The notes under the pieces are model-generated. The model did not search any database. It was not told the DNA's origin and worked only from the letters and a program-made list of their open reading frames with translations. Both the position numbers and the translations under genes were made by a program. Positions 32,201-42,247 of a DNA stretch of 64,000 nucleotides are shown here, one piece after another; positions within the stretch are counted from its first letter, which is position 1; the number at the start of each line of letters is the position of its first letter. Source of the DNA: Dryocola sp. LX212 (GTDB taxonomy: Bacteria; Pseudomonadota; Gammaproteobacteria; Enterobacterales; Enterobacteriaceae); assembly GCA_041504365.1 (NCBI GenBank), contig CP167917.1, positions 4,030,001 to 4,094,000 on the forward strand, read 5' to 3'.

Positions 32201-34111
32201 TCAAAAACGGCTCAGACACGCCACCGCCACCGCGCTGAAACTCGTAAAGTCCCTGCACTCCCGCAGCTTTGTCATCGCCCTTTCGCGAAGAAACGTCACG
32301 AAAATATCGTAAATCGCCATCGCCTCTTCGTATTCGCTTTTGCTGATCGCCAGCAGGAAGATAACGTGCGCGGTTTCGTCACCCCAGCTGATGCCGTGCG
32401 GGGCAAGCACGGTATAGACCACGGTTTTGTTGGCCATCAGGCCAAGGGAGTGCGGTAGCGCTATGCCTTCGCCGAGCATGGTGCTGACTATCGCTTCCCG
32501 CTCTACAACCGATGGATAAAAGTCATCACTGACGTAGCCTTCCTGCTCCAGCTGCCCGCACAGCTGGCTAAAGAGTTGCTGCTGGGTAACCGGCTCGTCA
32601 ATGACCAGGAAGTGGCGGGCATCGAAGAACTTTTCCAGCATGTAGGGGCGTGTTCTGTCCACCAGCACCAGCTTGCCCAGCTGTTCAAGCTGATACTCCG
32701 TCGGGAACGGCGACATCGCCACGATCGGCTTATCCTTTTCGTGGATGCGCGCGGTGGTAATCACAAAATCCTCTTCAACGCTGCCCAGCAGCTCGTATTC
32801 ACGCAGGGAAATAATGCGCGTCACCTCGATTTGCGGGTACTTCCGCAGCAGCATCGCCTGAATCATGCGTACCGTAGAGTTGCCCGTATCGCACACCAGC
32901 AGCGCACGCGGATGTCGCTGGTAGCCGATGTTGTAGTGCCTCTCCAGCCCCACGCCGATATGCAGCACCAGAAAACCAATTTCGTTTTCGCTGATGGCAT
33001 AGGGCGTGTATTTGCCCCAGCTCGACACCGCGGCCAGCGTCATGTCATAGGCCATCGGGTAGTGCTGCTTGATGTTGGACAGCAGCGGATTAGGAATATT
33101 GATCTGATAGCGCACGCGGGTAATCATCGTTTTGATGTGCGTGAGCAGGTCGGCATGCAGCTGGGTATCAGCCAGCATGTTGTAGTTATAGTGGGTGTTG
33201 ATGTAGCGCAGGATATAATTTACCAGCGCTTCGTCATCGTCGGCGCTGATGGCGCTCGGCGCCACATCCTGCACCTGCCGCGCCGCAATATGTACCTGAA
33301 GCCACTGCTCTTCCGCTTCGGACAGCGCTTTACCCGCCAGCTGCCGCAGCAGGTCAGCTATCTGCCGCGCGGCCGCCCGGACGTCATCCTCCACGTTATC
33401 GGCGGTAAACTCTGCAAGCGGGTAGCCTTCGCTGATGCGGCGCACCGCCACCGCGCAGTACAGGCGGATAAACCGCTCCCCTTCGTCCGTCAGGCGAATG
33501 CGACAACGGGTGAAGCAGTCATGCAGCTCCGTCGCAAGCAGTGCCGGGACGCCAGCATTGAGCGCCTCTTCGGTGAGTAATGGGTTATCGCCGTCTTCCT
33601 GCTGCAGCTCCCAGAGCAGGTCCGTCAGGCAGGCGCGCATTGCCGTTTCGCTGCCAAACAGCTTCATGCCGTGGCGCGGACGCGTTTCAATGGTCAGATT
33701 ATAGCGGGCCAGCCACTCGCGCACTTCGGCCATATCGCTTTGCAGGGTCGCCCGGCTGACAAACCACTCGTCCGCCAGATCTTCCAGCTTCAAAGAAAAG
33801 GCCGAGGTCAGAAAGCGGACGATGAGGTAGTGAACCCGCTCAGGCGAGGTTCGGGGAATACGTAGCTGCCGTGATGGTTGTTGTACCAGCGCCTCATAAC
33901 GTTCGGCATCTTCGATAATCAGCTGATAGCCTTCGCCGCGGGCAAGGGTAAACTGCGCACCATGCCCGGCGAGCAGCGTATTCAGCGCCGTGATATCAGT
34001 CCGTACCGTGCGGGTGGAAACTGACAGACGCCGCGCCAGTTCGTCCTGGGGCAGCGTCTCGGTTTGTAGCATCTCAAACAGCTGGGACAGGCGAAGGTTG
34101 GGGAATCGCAA
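32201..34111 (-). CDS. PTS-sensing regulator with HTH, two PRDs, EIIB and EIIA modules
   Basis: A 636-residue BglG/MtlR-type regulator: two N-terminal helix-turn-helix regions (about 1-60 and 85-160), PRD1 (about 195-285, with H197 and H274), PRD2 (about 300-395, with H319 and H384). A Gat-type EIIB-like domain with C407 (LLVCDTGNST) and a fructose-type EIIA domain with H554 (GIALPHS) follow. Such proteins are phosphorylated by HPr and by the cognate EII, and switch operon expression with substrate flux. Starts at TTG 34111 with site aaggaaac. Last gene of the ten-gene operon, so probably its regulator; this implies that the operon's transporter is PTS-like. Confidence 0.85.
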   Translation of the reverse strand: MRFPNLRLSQLFEMLQTETLPQDELARRLSVSTRTVRTDITALNTLLAGHGAQFTLARGEGYQLIIEDAERYEALVQQPSRQLRIPRTSPERVHYLIVRFLTSAFSLKLEDLADEWFVSRATLQSDMAEVREWLARYNLTIETRPRHGMKLFGSETAMRACLTDLLWELQQEDGDNPLLTEEALNAGVPALLATELHDCFTRCRIRLTDEGERFIRLYCAVAVRRISEGYPLAEFTADNVEDDVRAAARQIADLLRQLAGKALSEAEEQWLQVHIAARQVQDVAPSAISADDDEALVNYILRYINTHYNYNMLADTQLHADLLTHIKTMITRVRYQINIPNPLLSNIKQHYPMAYDMTLAAVSSWGKYTPYAISENEIGFLVLHIGVGLERHYNIGYQRHPRALLVCDTGNSTVRMIQAMLLRKYPQIEVTRIISLREYELLGSVEEDFVITTARIHEKDKPIVAMSPFPTEYQLEQLGKLVLVDRTRPYMLEKFFDARHFLVIDEPVTQQQLFSQLCGQLEQEGYVSDDFYPSVVEREAIVSTMLGEGIALPHSLGLMANKTVVYTVLAPHGISWGDETAHVIFLLAISKSEYEEAMAIYDIFVTFLRERAMTKLRECRDFTSFSAVAVACLSRF

Positions 34112-34156
34112 TGCAGTTTCCTTTTCTTAAACGGGTGCACGGGCGGCCCGGCAAAG

Positions 34157-35308
34157 CTATTTCACGGGGGAGAACACCAGCTGTGAAGGGCTTCCGACCG
34201 CCACGTAATCGTCAATAAACGACAGCTTGCCGTCCGGCTTCGCCACGCTGAAACGCGTGATATTGTCGCTTCTCTGATTCATAGCGTAGAGATAATTGCC
34301 GCTGCTATCGAGTGTAAGCGTGCGGGGGTAGTCGCCACGCGTCCAGATATCGCCCTGATGGGTCAGGGTACCGTTAGCCGACACGGTAAAGTGTGCGATG
34401 CTGTTATGCAGGCGATTCGCCACGTACAGCTGCTTTCCATCGTGACTCAGGACAAGGCCCGCCGCGAAACTGGTGCCCTTATAACCCTTTGGCAGCGCAG
34501 AGATCGTTTTGCCTTCGGTTAAGGTGCCCTTAGCCGTATCGAGCTGATAATGGGTAAGCGTCGAGGACTCTTCGTTGATCAGCCACAGACCGTCGCCATC
34601 TGGCGTAAACACAAAATGGCGTGGCCCGGCACCTTTGGAAGAAGCGGCAATAAACGGCGGATCGTTTGGCGTCAGCCTGCCGGTTGCATCATCGAAACGA
34701 TACTGATAGATCCGATCGAGTCCCAGATCGGTAGAAAAGACAAACTTACCGCTCGGATCGGCGGAGATCATATGCGCATGCGGCCCGTTATGATCGCTGG
34801 CCGCAAAACTGCCTTCAACGGCGGCTTCCGGCTTCGCCGCGCCCGGCTGGCCTTCATCCTGTTTCGTGTCCGTGGCTTCACCCAGGCTACCGTCCTGTTT
34901 AATCGGCAGCACGGCAATGGTGCCGCTGACATAATTGGCGACCAGCAGATGGCGTCCGCTCGGTGTCAGAGACAAATAAACCGGCCCGTCACCGCCAGAA
35001 GCAACCTGGTTTAATTCAGTCAAATCTCCATCTTCGCCAATGCGCAGAGCAGCAACCACGCCATTCTCCGCCTCGCTCGCCACGTACAGCGTTTTGCCCT
35101 CTTCAGAGGCGGTGAGCTGAGCGGCATTCGGCAGCTGATTCACCAACGTTTTATTGCTGAGCGCGCCGGTTTTCGTATCCACCTGAAAGCGATAAACGCC
35201 CTCTCCGTTCGGGTTGTAAGTCCCTACCCATGCGAACTGCGGCTGGGCCGCTGCCGTCCCGGCCACCATAGCAAATGATGCGATAAGCAGATTACGTGTT
35301 GCAGGCAT
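34157..35308 (-). CDS. Periplasmic lactonase-family beta-propeller protein
   Basis: A 383-residue member of the seven-bladed-propeller lactonase family (PF10282 type, which includes cytosolic 6-phosphogluconolactonase Pgl). It differs from Pgl in having a signal peptide (MPATRNLLIASFAMVAGTAAA, cleaved near residue 21). Repeats such as PSGRHLLVANYVSGTIAV, PSGKFVFSTDLGLDRIYQY and DSSGNYLYAMNQRSDNITRF mark the blades. Probably opens a sugar lactone in the periplasm. It is 101 bp downstream of the aldolase, past a BIME, and 45 bp upstream of the regulator. Confidence 0.82.
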   Translation of the reverse strand: MPATRNLLIASFAMVAGTAAAQPQFAWVGTYNPNGEGVYRFQVDTKTGALSNKTLVNQLPNAAQLTASEEGKTLYVASEAENGVVAALRIGEDGDLTELNQVASGGDGPVYLSLTPSGRHLLVANYVSGTIAVLPIKQDGSLGEATDTKQDEGQPGAAKPEAAVEGSFAASDHNGPHAHMISADPSGKFVFSTDLGLDRIYQYRFDDATGRLTPNDPPFIAASSKGAGPRHFVFTPDGDGLWLINEESSTLTHYQLDTAKGTLTEGKTISALPKGYKGTSFAAGLVLSHDGKQLYVANRLHNSIAHFTVSANGTLTHQGDIWTRGDYPRTLTLDSSGNYLYAMNQRSDNITRFSVAKPDGKLSFIDDYVAVGSPSQLVFSPVK

Positions 35309-35333
35309 TGGAGATCCTCGATGTTGGTTTAAT

Positions 35334-35402
35334 GGTAGATGGCACTGCGCTTACCCACCCCACGATCGCCCGCCAGGCAGATAAGAGCATCATCATCCGC
35401 CG
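35334..35402. repeat. Degenerate BIME (two facing REP units) within the operon
   Basis: ggtagatggcactgcgcttacccacc faces ccaggcagataagagcatcatcatccgcc; both resemble the REP units elsewhere here but with several changes. It separates the aldolase from the lactonase gene and may stabilise the upstream mRNA. Confidence 0.6.
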
Positions 35403-35409
35403 TTGCGTT

Positions 35410-36150
35410 TTAACCAACCAGCTTCTTAGTCATTTCCAGCAGAGTAGCAACATCGTGCGGACGGGTGTTACCGCTCGCCTTATCAATGATAGAGCTGTAG
35501 ATGTGCGGGATAACTTTGCTGACGCCCGCATCCAGCGCGATCTTGAGGATTTCTTCGTAGTTTTCCAGATCGATCCCGCCCGTTGGCTCGAGCCAGAAAT
35601 CGTGTTTTGCACAGGCCTCCGCTACCGCCCGGAACTCATCACGGCATTCCAGACCGCCCATCGGGAAGTACTTAATGGAGCTGCCGCCCATATCTTTCAG
35701 CAACTTGATGGCGGTTTCAACCGGTACAATGCCGTCCGGCGCTTTCGAACTAAGCGGCCCGGTGGAGATTTTTACCCTGCCAACGGTGCCGGTCGGGGAG
35801 ACAAGTCCGTTTACTACGGATTCATTTTGCCCAAGCAGCGCGCGTGACATCCCCACGCCAGTAAAGACCTGGTTAACGTGCTGCGGCTGAACCTGACGGG
35901 AGATTTCGCTAACCATCGCCGACTGATTCGGATCGCCAGCGCCAAGGCCCACGGAAAGCGCGTTATCGATAAGCGCCGCATAATCGCGCATATCCGCCAC
36001 CGCACTATCAACGTCCGGATAATTTTTGGATAGCACACCCACCAGCACATGCCCTTCGGCCGCATCATAAATCTCTTTGGCATTCTCTTTAGAGCCAGCC
36101 AGTACATTCAGGCAAACGCGATCGCGGTAAAAGTTAGGGGTTAGTTTCAT
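35410..36150 (-). CDS. dagF: 2-dehydro-3-deoxy-phosphogluconate aldolase (DgaF/DagF type)
   Basis: Cleaves KDGP to pyruvate and glyceraldehyde-3-phosphate. The 246-residue product is of the PF07071 KDGP-aldolase family: begins MKLTPNFYRDRVCLNVLAGS, has VLVGVLSKNYPDVDSA, GPLSSKAPDGIVPVETAI, IKYFPMGGLECRDEF and WLEPTGGIDLENYEEI. It is the family used in the D-glucosaminate pathway (dga genes), not the Eda family. ATGA overlap with the upstream PLP-enzyme gene indicates consecutive steps. Confidence 0.88.
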   Translation of the reverse strand: MKLTPNFYRDRVCLNVLAGSKENAKEIYDAAEGHVLVGVLSKNYPDVDSAVADMRDYAALIDNALSVGLGAGDPNQSAMVSEISRQVQPQHVNQVFTGVGMSRALLGQNESVVNGLVSPTGTVGRVKISTGPLSSKAPDGIVPVETAIKLLKDMGGSSIKYFPMGGLECRDEFRAVAEACAKHDFWLEPTGGIDLENYEEILKIALDAGVSKVIPHIYSSIIDKASGNTRPHDVATLLEMTKKLVG

Positions 36151-37265
36151 GCCTGATTCTCCTGGCTGGTATTCGCTTTAATGCACTGATAAATAATGTC
36201 TAACTGCTGCGGGCTGACGCTGCGTACGTCGGCTTCAATAATGCCTTCGTTCGCCTTGTAGCCGCGGAAGAAAATGGCGTACTCACCCTGTTTAAGGACG
36301 CTGACCAGCTCGCCCGTTGAAATACCAATCGCGGCTTCGTCGAACTTAATTTCCGTGCGGGCGATATCGCGGCCTGCGGCATCCCACACCACGCGGGCGC
36401 TCACGCCGTTCAGTGTATTAAGGCTGCCGATAAACGGCGTCATTTTCTGCACCATCTCTTCGCCGCTCTCTTTGGGCGCGGTGAGGTAGTGCTCAATAGC
36501 GCAGGTCAGGCCAAGAATACCTTCTTTGCCCACCTTCATGGCGCGACCTATCCCACCAGTTTGCAGCTTCACCCACTCGACGTACTGCTGCCTGCCGATA
36601 ACCAGACCGCTGGTTGGCCCTTCAATTGCTTTCGCACCGCTGTAGATCACCAGATCTGCGCCCGCGCGGTAATAGCACTGCAAATCCTCTTCCGCCGCCG
36701 CGTCGACAATCAGCGGCAGATTATGCTTGCGGGCAACCACAACGGCCTGCTCCACGCTGAGCATGCTTTTCTGCACTGAGTGGTGTGATTTGATATACAG
36801 GATGGCCGCCGTGTGCGGGGAAATCGCCGCCGCCAGCTGGTCCGCCGAACATTCGTTGGCGTAACCCGCTTCGACAATTTTGCCGCCGCCCAGGTTAACC
36901 ATGGTGCCGACCGGTGCGCCAAAGTTCACGTTGTGGCCTTTTGGCAGCACGATTTCGTTATTTTCCAGCTTACTGCCATGCAGATTTTCGATCTGCCACT
37001 GATTATCTTTCACCAGCACCGCCGCAACGGACTGGGCGATCCCGGCAGAGGCGCAGGAGACAACGGTCGCCGCTTCCACATCCAGCAGCTTCGCGATGTA
37101 CTCGCCGGTTTTGTTGACCAGATCTTTCATTTCAAAATAGTGATTCATGCCGTTGGTGACGGCTTCCACCACCTCCGGACGCGGGGTCGAAACGCCCAGT
37201 GCGGTCATACGCCCGGATGCATTAATCACCTGTTTTAAATTATATTTCTCATAGACTGAAGGCAT
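36147..37265 (-). CDS. SelA-like PLP enzyme (DgaE-type amino-sugar-acid ammonia-lyase)
   Basis: A 372-residue fold-type I PLP enzyme related to selenocysteine synthase: begins MPSVYEKYNLKQVINASGRM, has the substrate segment HNVNFGAPVG, the PLP-binding IVDAAAEEDL and Schiff-base lysine K212 (SGAKAIEGPTSG). In the glucosaminate pathway DgaE converts D-glucosaminate-6-phosphate to KDGP plus ammonia. Coupling to the KDGP aldolase supports the same reaction here. I chose the ATG at 37265 with family similarity starting at once; upstream frame is noncoding. Confidence 0.85.
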   Translation of the reverse strand: MPSVYEKYNLKQVINASGRMTALGVSTPRPEVVEAVTNGMNHYFEMKDLVNKTGEYIAKLLDVEAATVVSCASAGIAQSVAAVLVKDNQWQIENLHGSKLENNEIVLPKGHNVNFGAPVGTMVNLGGGKIVEAGYANECSADQLAAAISPHTAAILYIKSHHSVQKSMLSVEQAVVVARKHNLPLIVDAAAEEDLQCYYRAGADLVIYSGAKAIEGPTSGLVIGRQQYVEWVKLQTGGIGRAMKVGKEGILGLTCAIEHYLTAPKESGEEMVQKMTPFIGSLNTLNGVSARVVWDAAGRDIARTEIKFDEAAIGISTGELVSVLKQGEYAIFFRGYKANEGIIEADVRSVSPQQLDIIYQCIKANTSQENQA

Positions 37266-37275
37266 GTTCTTTTCC

Positions 37276-38379
37276 TTATTCGCAATCAAACCACTTACCG
37301 CCGCGGACGGCGGCAAGGGCCACGAGCAGCCGATCGCCGGTGAGCGTCTGCTGTTCAGAATCGGTGAACAGCGTCGGCTGGCGCTTAAGTTCAAAAATAG
37401 TCAGATCGCCGTCCAGGCCAACCACTAACCGGCCTTTATGCTGCAGCCGCAGGCCGTCCGCCGCATGAGCGGTAACGCAGTCAATCACCTGCGGCAGGGA
37501 AAGGCCGATGGAGAGGAATTTGGACATCACCGCGCCCAGGCTGTGTACCGGGCCGTTTATGCGGTTGCGACAGTAGATATCGGAGCTGATGGTGTGCGGC
37601 AGAATGCCCTGGCCGATGGCGATTTTCGCCACTTCAAAGCTGAAGCTGGCCGTGCCGTGACCCACGTCCAGACGTACGCCGCAAGCAATGGCTTTGGCAA
37701 CGGAAGCGCGCAGTTCACCCGCAGGGTTCAGGATGCGGTTCGGCTTGCCGTTGTAGCAGTGGGTAATAATATCGCCGCTGGAGAGCAGCTCGGTAATTTC
37801 GTCCAGGTCCGGCGGGTTGTTGCCGATGTGCACCATCATCGGCAGGTCGCCGTTTTCACGCTGGATTTCTTTGGCACGCTCAAGAGGTTTGATGCCGTTA
37901 GCGCCGACCACGCTGCTGCTCATGCGCGCTTTAATACCGACGATAAAACCTGGGTGGCGCTTCACCGCGTCACGCACGGCAACTTTGTCGATGTTCGCCA
38001 TGTCAGACAGCTCGTTCTGGGCAATCAGACCAACGCGAGAGATGTTCAGCAAGGCGTAAACGTCAGTCTGTGCTTTGCGGGTCAGCTCGTAAAACTCATC
38101 AATGTCATCCGCGCCGGTACTGCCCGCATCGACCACGGTAGTGACGCCGGTCGCGACGCCAACGCTGTCAGGATCGTCATGATAAATCGGGGATTTGGAG
38201 TAGCAGTGGACGTGGGAATCAATCCAGCCTGCGCTGACGTAATACTCGCCGCTAAGCTGGCGCTCCTCGCGTGCCTCGCCAGTCACCTCGCCCAGGGCCG
38301 CAATCTTGCCGTCCTTCAGCGCAATGTCGATAACCGTATCGTCCACCAGGCGGGCCTGACGCAGGATTAAGTCGAACAT
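37276..38379 (-). CDS. Amidohydrolase/deacetylase (EF_0837 type)
   Basis: A 367-residue TIM-barrel metal amidohydrolase. H56-x-H58 in GWIDSHVHCYSKSP binds metal, K150 in IVGIKARMS is the probable carboxylated bridging lysine, and later His/Asp ligands lie in MVHIGNNPP, ITHCYNGKPN and GHGTASFSF. It resembles dihydroorotase- and NagA-like deacetylases and belongs to the family conserved beside the DUF4310-4312 genes in other bacteria. It probably removes an acyl group from an amino-sugar acid before the PLP step. Downstream gene starts 10 bp later. Confidence 0.8.
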   Translation of the reverse strand: MFDLILRQARLVDDTVIDIALKDGKIAALGEVTGEAREERQLSGEYYVSAGWIDSHVHCYSKSPIYHDDPDSVGVATGVTTVVDAGSTGADDIDEFYELTRKAQTDVYALLNISRVGLIAQNELSDMANIDKVAVRDAVKRHPGFIVGIKARMSSSVVGANGIKPLERAKEIQRENGDLPMMVHIGNNPPDLDEITELLSSGDIITHCYNGKPNRILNPAGELRASVAKAIACGVRLDVGHGTASFSFEVAKIAIGQGILPHTISSDIYCRNRINGPVHSLGAVMSKFLSIGLSLPQVIDCVTAHAADGLRLQHKGRLVVGLDGDLTIFELKRQPTLFTDSEQQTLTGDRLLVALAAVRGGKWFDCE

Positions 38380-38428
38380 GGTTTTCTCCTTTATGGGCGG
38401 ATGGCACAGGCCGCCATCCGCCGCTGTG

Positions 38429-39070
38429 TTACAGCGCGACCGGGAAGATCGCACCCAGGATCATCGCGCCCAGAATTGCGCCGCCGGTAATAGGCTTGCC
38501 CCAGAGGTAGAACAGCAGGGAGCCCACCAGCGAACCGATGCCGATAGGAATAGAAGCGGTCATTGCGCTGAGGATAATCAACGGCCCAAGGAAGCGGCCA
38601 GAAGCGTTACCCGCCCCCATCATCACGTCCGCCCCGTAGGTGGAGTCGCTCTGATTGATGGTGAACTTACGCGCCAGAATAATGATGTAGCCAACGGCCA
38701 GGCCAAGCACCAGTCCTGTGACCAGCGATGCCCCGAAGTTAGCCACCGGGAAGACAAAGCCTGCACCCAGCAGCAGCGCCGGAACGCCAAGGCCAATACC
38801 GGTCTGAATGGCCCCACCGATATCCAGAATCCCCACCAGCGAACCTTCGATGATGCGGGCAAACAGGAAGCTTGCACCAAATGCAGCGACCGCACCGTAA
38901 GCCCCGGTATCAATCCCCGCACGCAGCATGGAAACGAAGGCTACTTCGTTAAAGGCACCAATGCCGTACAGGTAGTACATGTGTGTCCCGGCGAACACGC
39001 CGGAAGAAAGCAGGCCAACAAAAATCGGGAACGACCAGTCGGCATACCAGAACCCTTTATTCTCTTCCAT
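38429..39070 (-). CDS. DUF4310-family integral membrane protein
   Basis: A 213-residue inner-membrane protein with about six hydrophobic segments, starting MEENKGFWYADWSFPIFVGL. Glycine-rich helices (GIGLGVPALLLGAGFVFPVA; VTGLVLGLAVGYIIILA) and the ending YLWGKPITGGAILGAMIL suggest a channel or permease component. The function of the family is not established. With DUF4311 it probably forms the membrane part of an uncharacterised uptake system. Confidence 0.8.
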   Translation of the reverse strand: MEENKGFWYADWSFPIFVGLLSSGVFAGTHMYYLYGIGAFNEVAFVSMLRAGIDTGAYGAVAAFGASFLFARIIEGSLVGILDIGGAIQTGIGLGVPALLLGAGFVFPVANFGASLVTGLVLGLAVGYIIILARKFTINQSDSTYGADVMMGAGNASGRFLGPLIILSAMTASIPIGIGSLVGSLLFYLWGKPITGGAILGAMILGAIFPVAL

Positions 39071-39080
39071 TGCAGGCTCC

Positions 39081-39857
39081 TTATTTTCCGCTCATTGAGT
39101 TATGGATCAGATCCAGCCAGTTCGGCACGGTCAGATGGAAGGATTCGATCATCTTCATGTCGAAGCCGCGGAAGAATGCGCTCAGGACGAACAGGGCGAC
39201 AATCGCGCTCATCATCACTTTGGTGACGCGGTTCCAGCCGCTCTCTTCCACGCCTTTACCAATCAGGATCCCCAGCACCAGGCCCGGTACGGCGTTGCCC
39301 ATGATCAGCTGCGCGCAGCCGCCGAAGATGGTCGCCCAGAAGCCAGATTTTTTACCGGCATCAATCGCCGCCAGCCAGAAAATAACCGGCATCACGGTGT
39401 TCACCAGCAGGTTTGCGGCAGGCACCAGCACCTTAACGGCGGTAACCTGAAGTGCTTCTGGCACGGCGGAGGCGGTAGAGTTAAGGAAAGCGACCACGAA
39501 CATGCCAATCAAGCCGCAGGCGATGGCCATCTTTTTCGGGTCGTGCAGGGTTTCGGCGACGTTGCGATTTTTGATCATCAGCGCGGCGGCACCCCAGTTC
39601 GGGATAATGCGGTGGTCAACGTCCTGCGTGAAGGCACCCGCTGCAACAGAGGAGGCCCAGGCGTTGAAGAAGAAACCTAAACCAAAGGAGAAATGCGAAG
39701 CCGGGTCACCTTCACAGGAGTTCAGTTCGCCGAGCGTACGAAATGCCCCCATGCCCTGGGATGTTGGCGCATGAAACATTCGGGCAGCCCCGGCGCCAAC
39801 ACCCACGCCGACCAGGCCGCCGATGATGAGCGATTTTATTAATATTATTAAGAACAT
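39081..39857 (-). CDS. DUF4311-family integral membrane protein
   Basis: A 258-residue inner-membrane protein with about six to seven hydrophobic segments: MFLIILIKSLIIGGLVGVGV at the start, conserved polar loops SCEGDPASHFSFGLGFFFN and WGAALMIKNRNVAETLHDP, and membrane helices such as AVPGLVLGILIGKGVEES. Family function not established. Encoded 10 bp before DUF4310; the two probably form a two-subunit membrane complex. Confidence 0.8.
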   Translation of the reverse strand: MFLIILIKSLIIGGLVGVGVGAGAARMFHAPTSQGMGAFRTLGELNSCEGDPASHFSFGLGFFFNAWASSVAAGAFTQDVDHRIIPNWGAAALMIKNRNVAETLHDPKKMAIACGLIGMFVVAFLNSTASAVPEALQVTAVKVLVPAANLLVNTVMPVIFWLAAIDAGKKSGFWATIFGGCAQLIMGNAVPGLVLGILIGKGVEESGWNRVTKVMMSAIVALFVLSAFFRGFDMKMIESFHLTVPNWLDLIHNSMSGK

Positions 39858-39880
39858 CAGTCTGTCCTTTCTGTGTGTTG

Positions 39881-40177
39881 TTATTGTGCGACGAAATCCA
39901 CTTTGTCGAGATTAATGGCCGTCACGTTGACGGTGACGTCCAGCTCCACGCTGAACGTGCGTCGTTCACGCTTCAGAAAGAAGAATAAAAAGGCCTCTTT
40001 CTTAACCTGTACCCGCGCCTGAACAACCTGCACATCCTGTGGCTCAATACGCAGTAAAATACGGGGTGACGACTTGAGCACCGTACCCTGCACGTGGTTC
40101 AGGGCGTCGGCAAAGGCTTTAGCTTTACTGTCGCCGCGCCCGCTCACTCTCACTTTTTCGGAGAAGTGTTCTTTCAT
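39881..40177 (-). CDS. DUF4312-family small protein
   Basis: A 98-residue soluble protein: FSEKVRVSGRGDSKAKAFAD at the start, a central strand-rich region (VQARVQVKKEAFLFFFLKRE) and an end rich in Val/Asp (VELDVTVNVTAINLDKVDF). No catalytic motif is evident. It begins 2 bp after the SFCGS gene ends and likely acts with it as a cytosolic component of the same system. Confidence 0.78.
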   Translation of the reverse strand: MKEHFSEKVRVSGRGDSKAKAFADALNHVQGTVLKSSPRILLRIEPQDVQVVQARVQVKKEAFLFFFLKRERRTFSVELDVTVNVTAINLDKVDFVAQ

Positions 40178-40179
40178 AC

Positions 40180-40542
40180 TCAGCTGCCGTGCTTCTTGTT
40201 CCAGGCCTGGACCAGGCGCTCGCCCAGCTCTTCTTTATCCATAAAGCCAAAGCCCAGCACGTTGTTGCCTTCGTTAATTGCCGTCACGCCTTCCTCAACG
40301 GAGCGCATGCCGTATTTTGCTTTGTAGCCGTGTTTGGTCTGCGCGGTAATTGCGCCCGCACCGCCGCTGCCGCAGAAGGAGATGCCGAAGCTGGCGTTCT
40401 CGGCTTTCATCACGTCGCCCAGCTTCATGTCGGCGGCCATACCAGGGATCACCACTGCACGGCCACCCGCTTTTTCGATCCCTGCCGCAACTTTCTGGCC
40501 TTTGCCCAGACGATCGCCAATCACTACGGTAATTTGTTCCAT
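40180..40542 (-). CDS. Glycine-rich SFCGS-family protein
   Basis: A 120-residue cytosolic protein carrying the family motif SFCGSGGAG with C57. The order strand-turn-helix (ITVVIGDRLGKGQKVAAGIE, AVVIPGMAADM) followed by a cysteine in a glycine/serine loop resembles the phosphocysteine loop of PTS EIIB proteins; that likeness is my inference. The start at 40542 has a good site (ggag, 8 bases). Confidence 0.8.
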   Translation of the reverse strand: MEQITVVIGDRLGKGQKVAAGIEKAGGRAVVIPGMAADMKLGDVMKAENASFGISFCGSGGAGAITAQTKHGYKAKYGMRSVEEGVTAINEGNNVLGFGFMDKEELGERLVQAWNKKHGS

Positions 40543-40559
40543 GTGTGTCTCCTGATTAT

Positions 40560-40895
40560 TCAAAGATTGTCTTTAGCGACTTCAAAATGCACCGACAGCA
40601 GCCACGCCTCTTCCGCCGGTAAATTGCCAAACAGATCCACCACCTCTCTGGCCATTGCCAGCGAGTCGGGGGAGATCTCATCGAACAGCTCCTCTTCCAC
40701 CTCCGGCAGCGGCTCACCGGTTAAAGACCGATGGACCATGGCACGAACGTGGGACTCGAGCATCTGCTCCTGCACCTCGTTCGGCGTGATATTTCTTGTC
40801 TGATATAGCGCGCTGATAAACGCCAGCACGTTTTCCGTCATCTGCGTGGCATCACGACTTTCAGCTTCACCAACCTTTACCGCTCCGTTATTCAC
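40560..40895 (-). CDS. Stand-alone PRD-domain protein
   Basis: First gene of the operon. The product from the GTG at 40895 is 111 residues, a single PRD (MTENVLAFISALYQTRNITP, MLESHVRAMVHRSLTGEPLP, AWLLSVHFEVAKDNL) with conserved histidines of the kind phosphorylated by PTS proteins. A GTG at 40970 would add 25 residues but would run through a 20-bp palindrome, whereas 40895 has site tgagg at good spacing and gives the usual family length. Probably a phosphorylation-sensing partner. Confidence 0.72.
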   Translation of the reverse strand: MNNGAVKVGEAESRDATQMTENVLAFISALYQTRNITPNEVQEQMLESHVRAMVHRSLTGEPLPEVEEELFDEISPDSLAMAREVVDLFGNLPAEEAWLLSVHFEVAKDNL

Positions 40896-40963
40896 ACCAG
40901 GTACCTCATTCGCTGCTATGGCTCTAAGGTATCGACGGGGGTTATTGGTTTGTAGCGAGTTGT

Positions 40964-40983
40964 TTTCCACTTCGAAGTGGAAA
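40964..40983. promoter_or_regulatory. Perfect 20-bp palindrome upstream of the operon
   Basis: TTTCCACTTCGAAGTGGAAA is a perfect 20-bp inverted repeat with no loop, about 70 bp upstream of the first gene's start. It has the form of a dimeric-repressor or activator operator, or of an RNA hairpin in the leader. Confidence 0.6.
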
Positions 40984-41047
40984 TCCCACCCTCGACAGTG
41001 ATCTATTCCACATAAAATGCAGGGATCACGATAATCCGCTGGTTTTG

Positions 41048-41063
41048 TGTGATTCAGGTCACG
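41048..41063. promoter_or_regulatory. Candidate CRP site upstream of the sugar-acid operon
   Basis: tgtga-ttcagg-tcacg matches tgtga-N6-tcaca at 9 of 10 positions. It is about 65 bp upstream of the palindrome, in the only noncoding region before the operon, and fits catabolite control of a sugar-acid pathway. Confidence 0.6.
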
Positions 41064-41260: not shown

Positions 41261-42247
41261 TCAAGCGGTAGCTGCATAATTTTCATCCCATGGCAGGCGT
41301 GTTTTCAGCACCCCGAAGCACATGTGCACCAGCTTGCGCATTACTGCACCCAGCGCCGCCTTCTTTGCCTTCCCTCTCGCTATCAGCCTTTCGTATATCT
41401 CTTTCGCCGGTTTATTCCACCGGCTGGCGCTCATTGCCGCCACATACAGCTTCGCTCTTATCCCCGACGGCCCTGTTTTCGACATGTGAGGACGCCCACG
41501 CACCGAGCTTCCCGACGTTTTTTCCACCGGTGTGATGCCCAGATACGCCGCCACCTGCGAGGCACTTCTGAACGCGCCGTCTTTCAGGATAGCCAGCATT
41601 TCCCGGCCTACCTGATCCTTTACACCCTTAATCGATTTCAGCAGATCAAGATCTGCTTTCAGCCCCGGATCGTTGTCCGTGTGGTCTGTAATGAGCCTTT
41701 CTATCCGCTCCAGCTCGTCGCTCAACCAGCTGTGAGTCCGCTGGAGCGAGGTGATAACTTCCCGCGGCGTGGCCGTGGAGTGGGCTTTTTCCAGCCGGTT
41801 TGCCGTCCGCTGAACGTCTTCTTTCAGCGCATCGCGCTGACGCAGGAGTGCCCTGAGCTTGCGAACTTCAGGCGATGGAGGCACCCAGGGTTCCGGGTGT
41901 TTCAGCTCGCCGTAACAGGCCAGAACGAAGGCATCAACCCTGTCGTTTTTGGTGAGGATATTCATCCCACAGGCAAATTCGCGCACGCGGTGGGGATTGG
42001 CCATACAGACCTTAACACCGGCATCATGAAGACCGTATGCCAGGTTCTCGTGATAGATACCGGTCGCTTCCAGTACCACGGTGACGCTATCAGACGGGCA
42101 CTTCTGAGCGTCGAGCCAGTCCGTGACCCTACGGGCCACGCCGGGTTCATTGGTGAAAACCTTGTGCTTTTTCTTGCCTTTAACACCAGCAGCAAGCAGA
42201 CAGATATCGATTTTATTTTTACTGACATCAACACCGAGAGTGAACAT
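41261..42247 (-). CDS. IS110-family recombinase (transposase)
   Basis: A 328-residue DEDD transposase: N-terminal RuvC-like domain with D7 (LGVDVSKNKID), E in VLEATGIYHE and D/D in KNDRVDAFVLA, then a coiled region and the C-terminal Tnp20-like domain (AYLGITPVEKTSGSSVRG, KTGPSGIRAKLY) holding the catalytic serine. A good ribosome binding site (aaaggag) precedes the ATG at 42247. The gene appears intact. Confidence 0.95.
   Translation of the reverse strand: MFTLGVDVSKNKIDICLLAAGVKGKKKHKVFTNEPGVARRVTDWLDAQKCPSDSVTVVLEATGIYHENLAYGLHDAGVKVCMANPHRVREFACGMNILTKNDRVDAFVLACYGELKHPEPWVPPSPEVRKLRALLRQRDALKEDVQRTANRLEKAHSTATPREVITSLQRTHSWLSDELERIERLITDHTDNDPGLKADLDLLKSIKGVKDQVGREMLAILKDGAFRSASQVAAYLGITPVEKTSGSSVRGRPHMSKTGPSGIRAKLYVAAMSASRWNKPAKEIYERLIARGKAKKAALGAVMRKLVHMCFGVLKTRLPWDENYAATA

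Follow-up and report, generated by a model that had tools for sequence, protein, structure and literature searches.

A putative amino-sugar-acid operon of Dryocola in which SFCGS, DUF4312, DUF4311 and DUF4310 proteins appear to take the place of a transporter and a kinase

The DNA analysed here, a stretch of 64,000 nucleotides from Dryocola sp. LX212 (contig CP167917.1, positions 4,030,001 to 4,094,000; hereafter the window), carries an operon of ten genes whose ORFs we found, all on the minus strand between 32201 and 40895, exactly where a first-pass annotation of the sequence had placed them. The genes code for a small PRD protein, an SFCGS protein, DUF4312, DUF4311 and DUF4310 proteins, an amidohydrolase, a DgaE-like ammonia-lyase, the aldolase DgaF, a lactonase-family protein and a PRD/EIIA regulator (Table 1). 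Our proposal, to which we give slightly less than even chances when it is taken as a whole, is that this is a catabolic operon with phosphorylating uptake of an N-acylated 2-amino-2-deoxy-aldonate by the DUF4311/DUF4310/SFCGS/DUF4312 set. The substrate, N-acetylglucosaminate or a close analogue, would enter through a membrane core of DUF4311 and DUF4310 with SFCGS and DUF4312 as cytosolic partners, and on or during entry it would receive a phosphoryl group from HPr and EI of the phosphotransferase system (PTS); Cys57 of SFCGS would be the best candidate for the last phosphoryl carrier or for phosphate binding. The amidohydrolase would then take off the acyl group, the DgaE-like enzyme would eliminate ammonia and water to give 2-keto-3-deoxygluconate (KDG) 6-phosphate, or KDGP, and DgaF would split the latter into pyruvate and glyceraldehyde-3-phosphate (GAP). 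In about half of the sampled loci, a secreted lactonase would first open the lactone of the acid. Control of the operon would be exerted by the PRD/EIIA regulator and CRP.

Gene content and constancy of the cassette

Pfam and NCBIfam searches recovered the named families of the operon products. All seven of the models TIGR03577, TIGR03578, TIGR03579, TIGR03580, TIGR03581, TIGR03582 and TIGR03583 were exceeded by window products; these models are numbered EF_0829-EF_0839 and AHA_3910-3917 and have no function attached, and the shared numbering suggests that their curators had seen the cassette. Since seven of the products already belong to numbered TIGRFAM families, the discovery would be the function and not the cluster. 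We found no paper on DUF4310 or "glycine-rich SFCGS" in the open-access literature, and searches of it for SFCGS, DUF4311, DUF4312 and the EF numbers turned up only titles without relation to them. The product families assigned in the first-pass annotation agree with the models, except that the EIIB domain of the regulator is limited to a motif (VCDTGNS) seen by eye: in a Pfam search of the window protein it did not reach E 0.1. We take this regulator to be of the MtlR/LicR type. The frame of the PRD gene is open up to a GTG at 40970, and its likely start is the GTG at 40895, as originally proposed; the resulting 111 aa fit the 107-112 aa of annotated PRD relatives, and the longer frame overlaps the palindrome described below.

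The cassette was followed through 103 loci, composed of three plasmid matches, the best 80 of 499 genome-contig relatives and 20 diversity picks, which were scanned with the cassette proteins and with extra genes from E. faecalis and Bartonella. By title, the best 80 are almost all Enterobacterales, and the 20 picks include two known partial copies; the loci share ancestry, so the counts given here are of non-independent events. Residue-conservation counts refer to full-length copies only (for DgaE, 92 loci and the window). The order PRD-SFCGS-DUF4312-DUF4311-DUF4310-amidohydrolase-DgaE-DgaF-(lactonase)-regulator is kept in 95 of the 103 loci, and with it the linkage of the four DUF/SFCGS families to the enzyme trio of amidohydrolase, DgaE and DgaF. 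Median gaps between neighbouring cassette genes ranged from -11 to 109 bp. Nine genes thus form a constant cassette; the tenth member of the unit as first described, the lactonase, is optional and stands before the regulator in 45 of the 103 loci. The eight exceptions to the order are the E. faecalis locus (L035), with genes inserted in the cassette; the Bartonella locus (L034), with an HPr-EI gene appended; L108, with a PTS EIIC (33% identical) some kb upstream of the cassette; L044 and L150, in which the cassette runs into contig ends; and L036, L160 and L162, which are described at the end.

Enzymes of the pathway

The chain from an acyl-amino-aldonate through an amino-aldonate and KDG(P) to pyruvate and GAP is well grounded on the chemical side, as the identities of the amidohydrolase, the DgaE-like lyase and DgaF and their conserved residues agree with it; the catabolic logic first read from the sequence is supported. 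The lyase exceeded the cut-off of TIGR01437 (599.7 vs 385.3 bits) and stayed under that of the DgaE equivalog NF047797 (377.9 vs 600 bits); the aldolase exceeded that of the DgaF equivalog NF047796 (400.1 vs 300 bits). The lyase aligns over its length with the solved Salmonella DGL (E 5e-87), for which the published description gives His162/His163 and a phosphate docked at a cluster of Arg301, Arg332 and Arg346 (PMC9529869). In the alignment these residues correspond to H170/H171 and R312/R343/R357 of the window enzyme, numbered from 9 codons upstream of the ATG at 37265. Lys221, which aligns with the lysine that binds pyridoxal phosphate (PLP), is invariant in 93/93 copies together with H171 and the three arginines, and position 170 is His in 92/93.

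The amidohydrolase is of the deacetylase family and a probable N-deacylase. It matched PDB entries 8wzy ("dihydroorotase", E 1.5e-184) and 2ics ("adenine deaminase", E 1.3e-107), and H56, H58, K150, H184, H207 and D267, the metal ligands expected from the superfamily, are invariant in 101/101 aligned sequences. The exact acid and its acyl group are inferred. The genome of the window codes for two membrane pyrroloquinoline quinone dehydrogenases, which could make such lactones in the periplasm, and it holds no second DgaE-like gene over the cut-off.

Transporter and kinase replacement in related operons

If the DUF/SFCGS set is a transporter, related operons without it should hold another one, and such operons do. 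A DgaF probe of plasmid records gave 14 matches at E 1e-10 or better, 11 of them close relatives; the other three records (Alicyclobacillus and two Listeria) are distant aldolases outside the comparison. The DUF set is present in six of the 11 (Klebsiella 2, Bartonella 2, E. faecalis 1 and A. caviae 1, a deleted copy). The plasmid operon of C. difficile holds PTS IIB, IIA and IIC, MupG, the trio and a sugar kinase, that of Niallia EIIC, MupG, a GntR-like frame, the trio and a kinase, and that of Priestia the trio, a kinase, GntR and a gluconate (GntP) symporter. All three have a PfkB kinase by Pfam (PF00294), which also identified GntP in Priestia and an EIIC in both C. difficile and Niallia, the latter with MupG as well. 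Two L. paracasei records combine a mannose-type PTS with DgaE and DgaF and have neither amidohydrolase nor kinase; their tables list no gene for 2.2 kb past the aldolase, and the L217 stretch holds transposase-like frames (by eye). This pairing of the trio with a PTS EIIC or GntP where the set is missing supports the transporter role that had been suggested for the four DUF families. Among the ten window products we found no recognisable transporter and no mannose-family PTS permease, the class to which Salmonella DgaABCD reportedly belongs. The earlier statement that a recognisable transporter is lacking holds for the window operon and fails for the E. faecalis cassette, which has PTS EIIC, MupG and a PfkB kinase alongside the DUF set.

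As queries, the four PfkB kinases matched just one of 107 loci (the 103, a second Bartonella, one Klebsiella and two from L. paracasei), that of E. faecalis, other kinase families not being sought. Room for a kinase-sized extra gene inside the cassette exists only in E. faecalis and in L165, whose aldolase is split. Operons with a symporter, or with a PTS and the glycosidase MupG, as the entry route thus encode PfkB, which was not found with a mannose PTS or with the DUF set alone. On the simplest reading of this distribution, the DUF set seems to stand in for both the transporter and the kinase, and phosphorylating uptake is plausible.

A connection with the PTS is seen in Bartonella, where an HPr-EI fusion directly follows the regulator on both plasmids; this speaks for a demand for phosphoryl groups from the PTS, if only on the part of the PRD regulators. 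Among the matches listed, its nearest plasmid homologues outside Bartonella are about 55% identical and come from Caballeronia and Paraburkholderia, and in one annotated Caballeronia context the homologous fusion adjoins a PTS IIBC gene. The remainder of the Bartonella HY406 plasmid annotation lists MFS, TonB and ABC genes and a type VI secretion system, and no EII. The amidohydrolase and DgaE have diverged more than DUF4310, DUF4311 and SFCGS. In comparisons of the window with E. faecalis and Bartonella, respectively, DUF4311 is 68% and 74% identical and DUF4310 72% and 73%; SFCGS reaches 72-76% and the aldolase 65-71%, DgaE stays at 53-60% and the amidohydrolase at 46-54%; DUF4312 is 44-51% identical to those of Bartonella, E. 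faecalis and two order-level relatives.

Several points weigh against phosphorylating uptake by this set. The replacement sample is small (five records and four operon types without the DUF set), the genes past the regulator and upstream of PRD lie outside the systematic comparison, and E. faecalis holds the DUF set and EIIC together. There are two distant PfkB-like matches elsewhere in the window's own genome and possibly a KDG kinase elsewhere in enterobacteria, so the lack of a kinase in the operon is no proof of phosphorylating uptake. The HPr-EI of Bartonella could serve the PRD regulators only. No invariant His was seen in the SFCGS or DUF4312 alignments, which leaves the EIIA step missing from the set, and no link of fold or sequence between DUF4310/DUF4311 and any transporter was found. 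Slow evolution is not peculiar to the set, since the aldolase matches the membrane pair fairly closely in conservation. Finally, we considered the phosphate-site arginines of DgaE as proof of a phosphorylated substrate and rejected them: the Niallia and Priestia enzymes, possibly users of the free acid, have all three as well, so these residues do not discriminate.

An alternative, which we regard as somewhat unlikely, is that the pathway is the same, DUF4311/DUF4310 is an ion-coupled or facilitative transporter of the acid, the kinase lies elsewhere, and SFCGS and DUF4312 are regulatory or enzymatic helpers. The Priestia operon, with its GntP symporter and kinase, demonstrates that entry independent of the PTS is compatible with these enzymes, and both the PfkB-like matches elsewhere in the genome and the absence of EIIA, EIIB or EIIC homology in the set agree with a plain transporter. 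However, the examined trio operons with MupG/EIIC or GntP entry do encode a kinase, and the PfkB of these operons matches E. faecalis alone in the 107 loci. In addition, the PRD regulators and the Bartonella HPr-EI point to the PTS, and SFCGS is conserved to the same degree as the membrane pair.

SFCGS as a probable remote relative of RpiB/LacAB and YhfU

The window SFCGS weakly matched four RpiB/LacAB library models (best 7e-4). PF02502 was matched by 14 of 16 diverse SFCGS members (best 1.7e-4), the window copy scoring 15.8 against a cut-off of 24.7 bits, and DUF2620, the family of E. coli YhfU, by 4 of the 16 (best 0.007). Only two PDB sequences came up at E 1 or better, both of RpiB type (E 0.61 and 0.99). 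In hhalign, SFCGS and RpiB aligned with E 1.5e-4 and a probability of 51% over only 32 columns, and SFCGS and YhfU with E 2.3e-4 and a probability of 20% over 115 columns (6.5e-3 without realignment and with the roles reversed). Profile searches against 9,999 ORFs from all loci gave a similar picture: leaving aside a degraded SFCGS remnant in L160, the ten next-best ORFs for the SFCGS profile were YhfU (8) and RpiB (2), at E 0.016 to 0.97, and the 14 best non-YhfU matches listed for the YhfU profile were all SFCGS, at E 0.0016 to 0.0051. A Cys motif, CGSGGA, is present in 101/101 SFCGS sequences with Cys57 invariant, and C[NQ][TS]G[AG]G in 22/22 YhfU rows (one gene counted twice). SFCGS would then be a remote relative of RpiB/LacAB and YhfU, with Cys57 in what resembles a phosphate-loop motif. 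An AlphaFold2 model built from a shallow alignment had a pLDDT of 63, with residues 59-97 under 50, and a Foldseek search with the partial model gave a best E of 0.086 and no RpiB among the 50 matches listed.

The first-pass annotation had proposed a fold comparison of SFCGS with PTS EIIB. We abandoned an EIIB assignment, as the remote similarity detected is to RpiB/LacAB and YhfU and not to EIIB: none of the 16 members matched PTS_IIB, and in the Foldseek search a lactose EIIB structure ranked 22nd (E 0.30) among generic sandwich folds. No EIIA or EIIB family was matched by the 16 SFCGS and 23 DUF4312 members, EIIA-2 being present in the regulator only.

The similarity to RpiB/LacAB in 14 of 16 members and the retained Cys-loop motif could also mean that SFCGS is an isomerase or epimerase of a sugar-acid phosphate, that DUF4310-DUF4312 perform some other membrane step, such as substrate-coupled ion transport, and that a general transporter imports the substrate. 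We judge this improbable, since the reconstructed pathway needs no isomerase, the window copy falls below the Pfam cut-off for RpiB, and the set occupies the transporter position of the related operons.

The membrane pair DUF4311/DUF4310

Hydropathy indicates about six membrane segments each in DUF4311 and DUF4310. A fold comparison of the two with EIIC had been suggested; by sequence we found no such relationship. For 18 DUF4310 and 7 DUF4311 members, searches whose filters drop most matches above 0.1 listed no EII family at E 5 or better, and no family beyond their own was matched over the cut-off. An AlphaFold model of DUF4311 from a shallow alignment was unusable (pLDDT 45.7). The C-terminal half of DUF4311 weakly resembles DUF2232 (PF09991) in 7/7 close relatives, with a best E of 0.006.

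By eye, DUF4311 and DUF4310 make a convincing split YhfT, an idea that we rejected as unproven. In hhalign, DUF4311 and YhfT aligned with E 0.48 (0.47 without realignment) and DUF4310 and YhfT with E 0.83 (0.085 without realignment, and 0.096 after removal of the chimeric row L036). Against shuffles, the YhfT alignments had z 0.6 and -0.1 for the matching halves; raised local values (z 2.1-3.2) were obtained for DUF4310 and the N-terminal half of YhfT, which is the wrong half for a split. YhfT was not among the DUF4311 or DUF4310 profile matches in the 9,999 ORFs.

Regulatory sites

A perfect palindrome stands ahead of the PRD gene (Table 1). No second site with 2 or fewer mismatches turned up in the 4.7-Mb genome, and shuffles of the window gave none, the pattern having been chosen after it was seen. 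Of 102 regions upstream of the cassette, 61 match it fully apart from the two central bases, 76 match it with no more than 2 mismatches, and in 97, Bartonella included, the best site has the form TTTCC-N10-GGAAA. The palindrome is a candidate operator, at which the regulator would probably act. TGTGA-N6-TCACA was found within 1 mismatch in 55 of 102 upstream regions, a raw count with no chance rate. In the 47 regions having both the palindrome (at most 2 mismatches) and a CRP-like site (at most 1), the latter lies exactly 80 bp upstream of the former in 39 and exactly 29 bp upstream in 10.

The small PRD gene adjoins SFCGS in every scanned locus that holds both, and in E. coli YhfY shares an operon with YhfU; the set could on these grounds be a sensor gating the PRD regulators (a membrane receptor and a cytosolic phospho-switch) instead of a transporter, which is very improbable, as the cassette would be left without a transporter of its own and operons without the set have one.

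Comparison with known systems

The Salmonella D-glucosaminate operon, a DgaABCD PTS with DgaE and DgaF (PMC9529869), shares with the window a DgaE-like lyase, DgaF and the end products pyruvate and GAP. The window differs in lacking DgaABCD, in adding the amidohydrolase and, in many relatives, the lactonase, in its PRD/EIIA regulator, and in its lyase, which is under the DgaE equivalog cut-off. The Firmicute MupG/EIIC operons (C. difficile, Niallia and part of the E. faecalis cassette) have the trio in the same order, whereas EIIC (with IIA and IIB in C. difficile), MupG and PfkB replace the DUF set, E. faecalis having both; L. plantarum probably has another operon of this kind, going by a table in one report (PMC9019972). 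The Priestia megaterium plasmid operon also has the trio and an acid transporter of its own, but the latter is a non-phosphorylating symporter accompanied by a kinase. The RpiB/LacAB isomerases, remotely similar to SFCGS, carry a Cys in a C-G-[ST]-G loop; the window copy is below their cut-offs, and an isomerase function is not implied.

The E. coli yhf operon (yhfS, yhfT, yhfU, php, yhfW, yhfX, yhfY, yhfZ), with products that carry no annotation beyond putative or uncharacterised, resembles the window operon in having a PRD protein (YhfY), the Cys-loop protein YhfU (DUF2620), a polytopic membrane protein, and hydrolase and PLP enzymes. It differs in its enzymes, in a single membrane protein, YhfT, without demonstrable homology to DUF4310 or DUF4311, and in the absence of DUF4312. 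The next-best ORFs for the PRD profile among the 9,999 were PRD proteins of YhfY type (E 4e-6 and 8e-5), PRD being a large family, and PRD and YhfY aligned in hhalign with E 3.9e-6 and a probability of 73% over 116 columns. Thus, the window operon appears to hold both a YhfU-like and a YhfY-like protein, at the level of remote homology. On a plasmid of the fusobacterium Cetobacterium somerae (L190, 7194-9236), the order PRD-DUF2620-YhfT-amidase-phosphotriesterase-like-PLP enzyme parallels that of the window. The likeness of SFCGS to YhfU and of PRD to YhfY, taken with the Cetobacterium order, indicates that the yhf operon shares a design with the cassette, although the membrane proteins display no relationship in the tests made.

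Roughly every second genome sampled from the window's family has DUF4311, yet its models assign it no function. The replacement pattern gives four such families a concrete role, and through the link between SFCGS and YhfU they become connected with the yhf operon of E. coli K-12. If uptake is phosphorylating, the PTS would gain a new transporter class, one of whose subunits is akin to isomerases of sugar phosphates. A further step, which we think unlikely on present evidence, would make it a separate class of PTS-driven sugar-acid permeases in which an RpiB-derived protein, bearing a phospho-cysteine or a Cys loop that binds phosphate, acts as EIIB, with YhfT/YhfU as a second example, independent or very divergent. 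Were this true, the combination of PRD, an RpiB-like Cys protein and a membrane protein would mark an unrecognised group of PTS-linked transporters.

Table 1. Genes of the operon and candidate regulatory sites in the window.
Feature	Position	Strand	Remarks
Small PRD-domain protein	40560..40895	-	TIGR03582 (EF_0829/AHA_3910), 130.8 bits vs cut-off 69.35
SFCGS protein, 120 aa	40180..40542	-	TIGR03577/PF14272; Cys57 in CGSGGA
DUF4312 protein, 98 aa	39881..40177	-	PF14189/TIGR03578; lowest conservation among the four DUF/SFCGS proteins
DUF4311 polytopic membrane protein, 258 aa, probable transporter subunit	39081..39857	-	PF14188/TIGR03580
DUF4310 polytopic membrane protein, 213 aa, probable transporter subunit	38429..39070	-	PF14187/TIGR03579
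EF_0837-type amidohydrolase, probable N-deacylase	37276..38379	-	TIGR03583
DgaE-like PLP ammonia-lyase	36147..37265	-	TIGR01437
KDGP aldolase DgaF	35410..36150	-	PF07071; NF047796 and TIGR03581 both over cut-off
Lactonase-family 7-bladed beta-propeller	34157..35308	-	PF10282; signal-peptide-like N-terminal stretch, by eye
PRD/EIIA regulator	32201..34111	-	Helix-turn-helix, Mga, two PRD stretches, EIIA-2 (Pfam)
20-bp palindrome TTTCCACTTCGAAGTGGAAA, candidate operator for the PRD/EIIA regulator	40964..40983		Perfect; 68 bp before likely PRD start
CRP-like site GTGACCTGAATCACAC	41047..41062	-	About 80 bp upstream of the palindrome

Distribution and irregular copies

In the window's family, 96 of 198 genomes gave a DUF4311 match (one a doubtful 27-bit match and one a copy broken by stops). 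The protein was also found in 1 of 274 genomes of the class, namely the window's own, and in plasmid records of E. faecalis and Bartonella. DUF4310 was found in 63 of 394 genomes of the order (one a 31-residue remnant), other families of the order included, and SFCGS in 12 of 398 genomes of the phylum, all 12 within the window's family. A scan of viral contigs gave no relative, and the E. coli genomes searched had no DNA-level match to the window stretch 38400-40970. A weak DUF4311 match in the window's own genome (L003) covers only one membrane segment of a protein that we take, from its looks, to be DjlA, and was set down to chance.

Several copies are irregular. In Aeromonas caviae (NZ_AP026896.1, L036, 10714-11271), DUF4310 and the KDGP aldolase are fused in one 186-aa frame and the amidohydrolase and DgaE are missing, by deletion or assembly error. 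L160 (9560-13437) is a degraded cassette without DUF4312, DUF4311 and DUF4310, in which the DgaE-like gene matches over its length. L162 (9838-10650) is a lone partial DUF4311 with an altered C-terminus; a gene close by resembles an aldehyde dehydrogenase gene by eye, and the same genome has a full cassette too (L161). The aldolase match is split into two pieces about 1 kb apart in L165 (4699-6684), as if interrupted by an insertion, and in E. faecalis (NZ_CP143580.1, L035, 18501-19225) it consists of two overlapping pieces with no listed gene, the frame apparently being broken. In the window itself, a transposase-like frame of 328 aa, presumably of IS110 type, lies at 41261-42247 on the same strand, directly upstream of the operon's promoter region.

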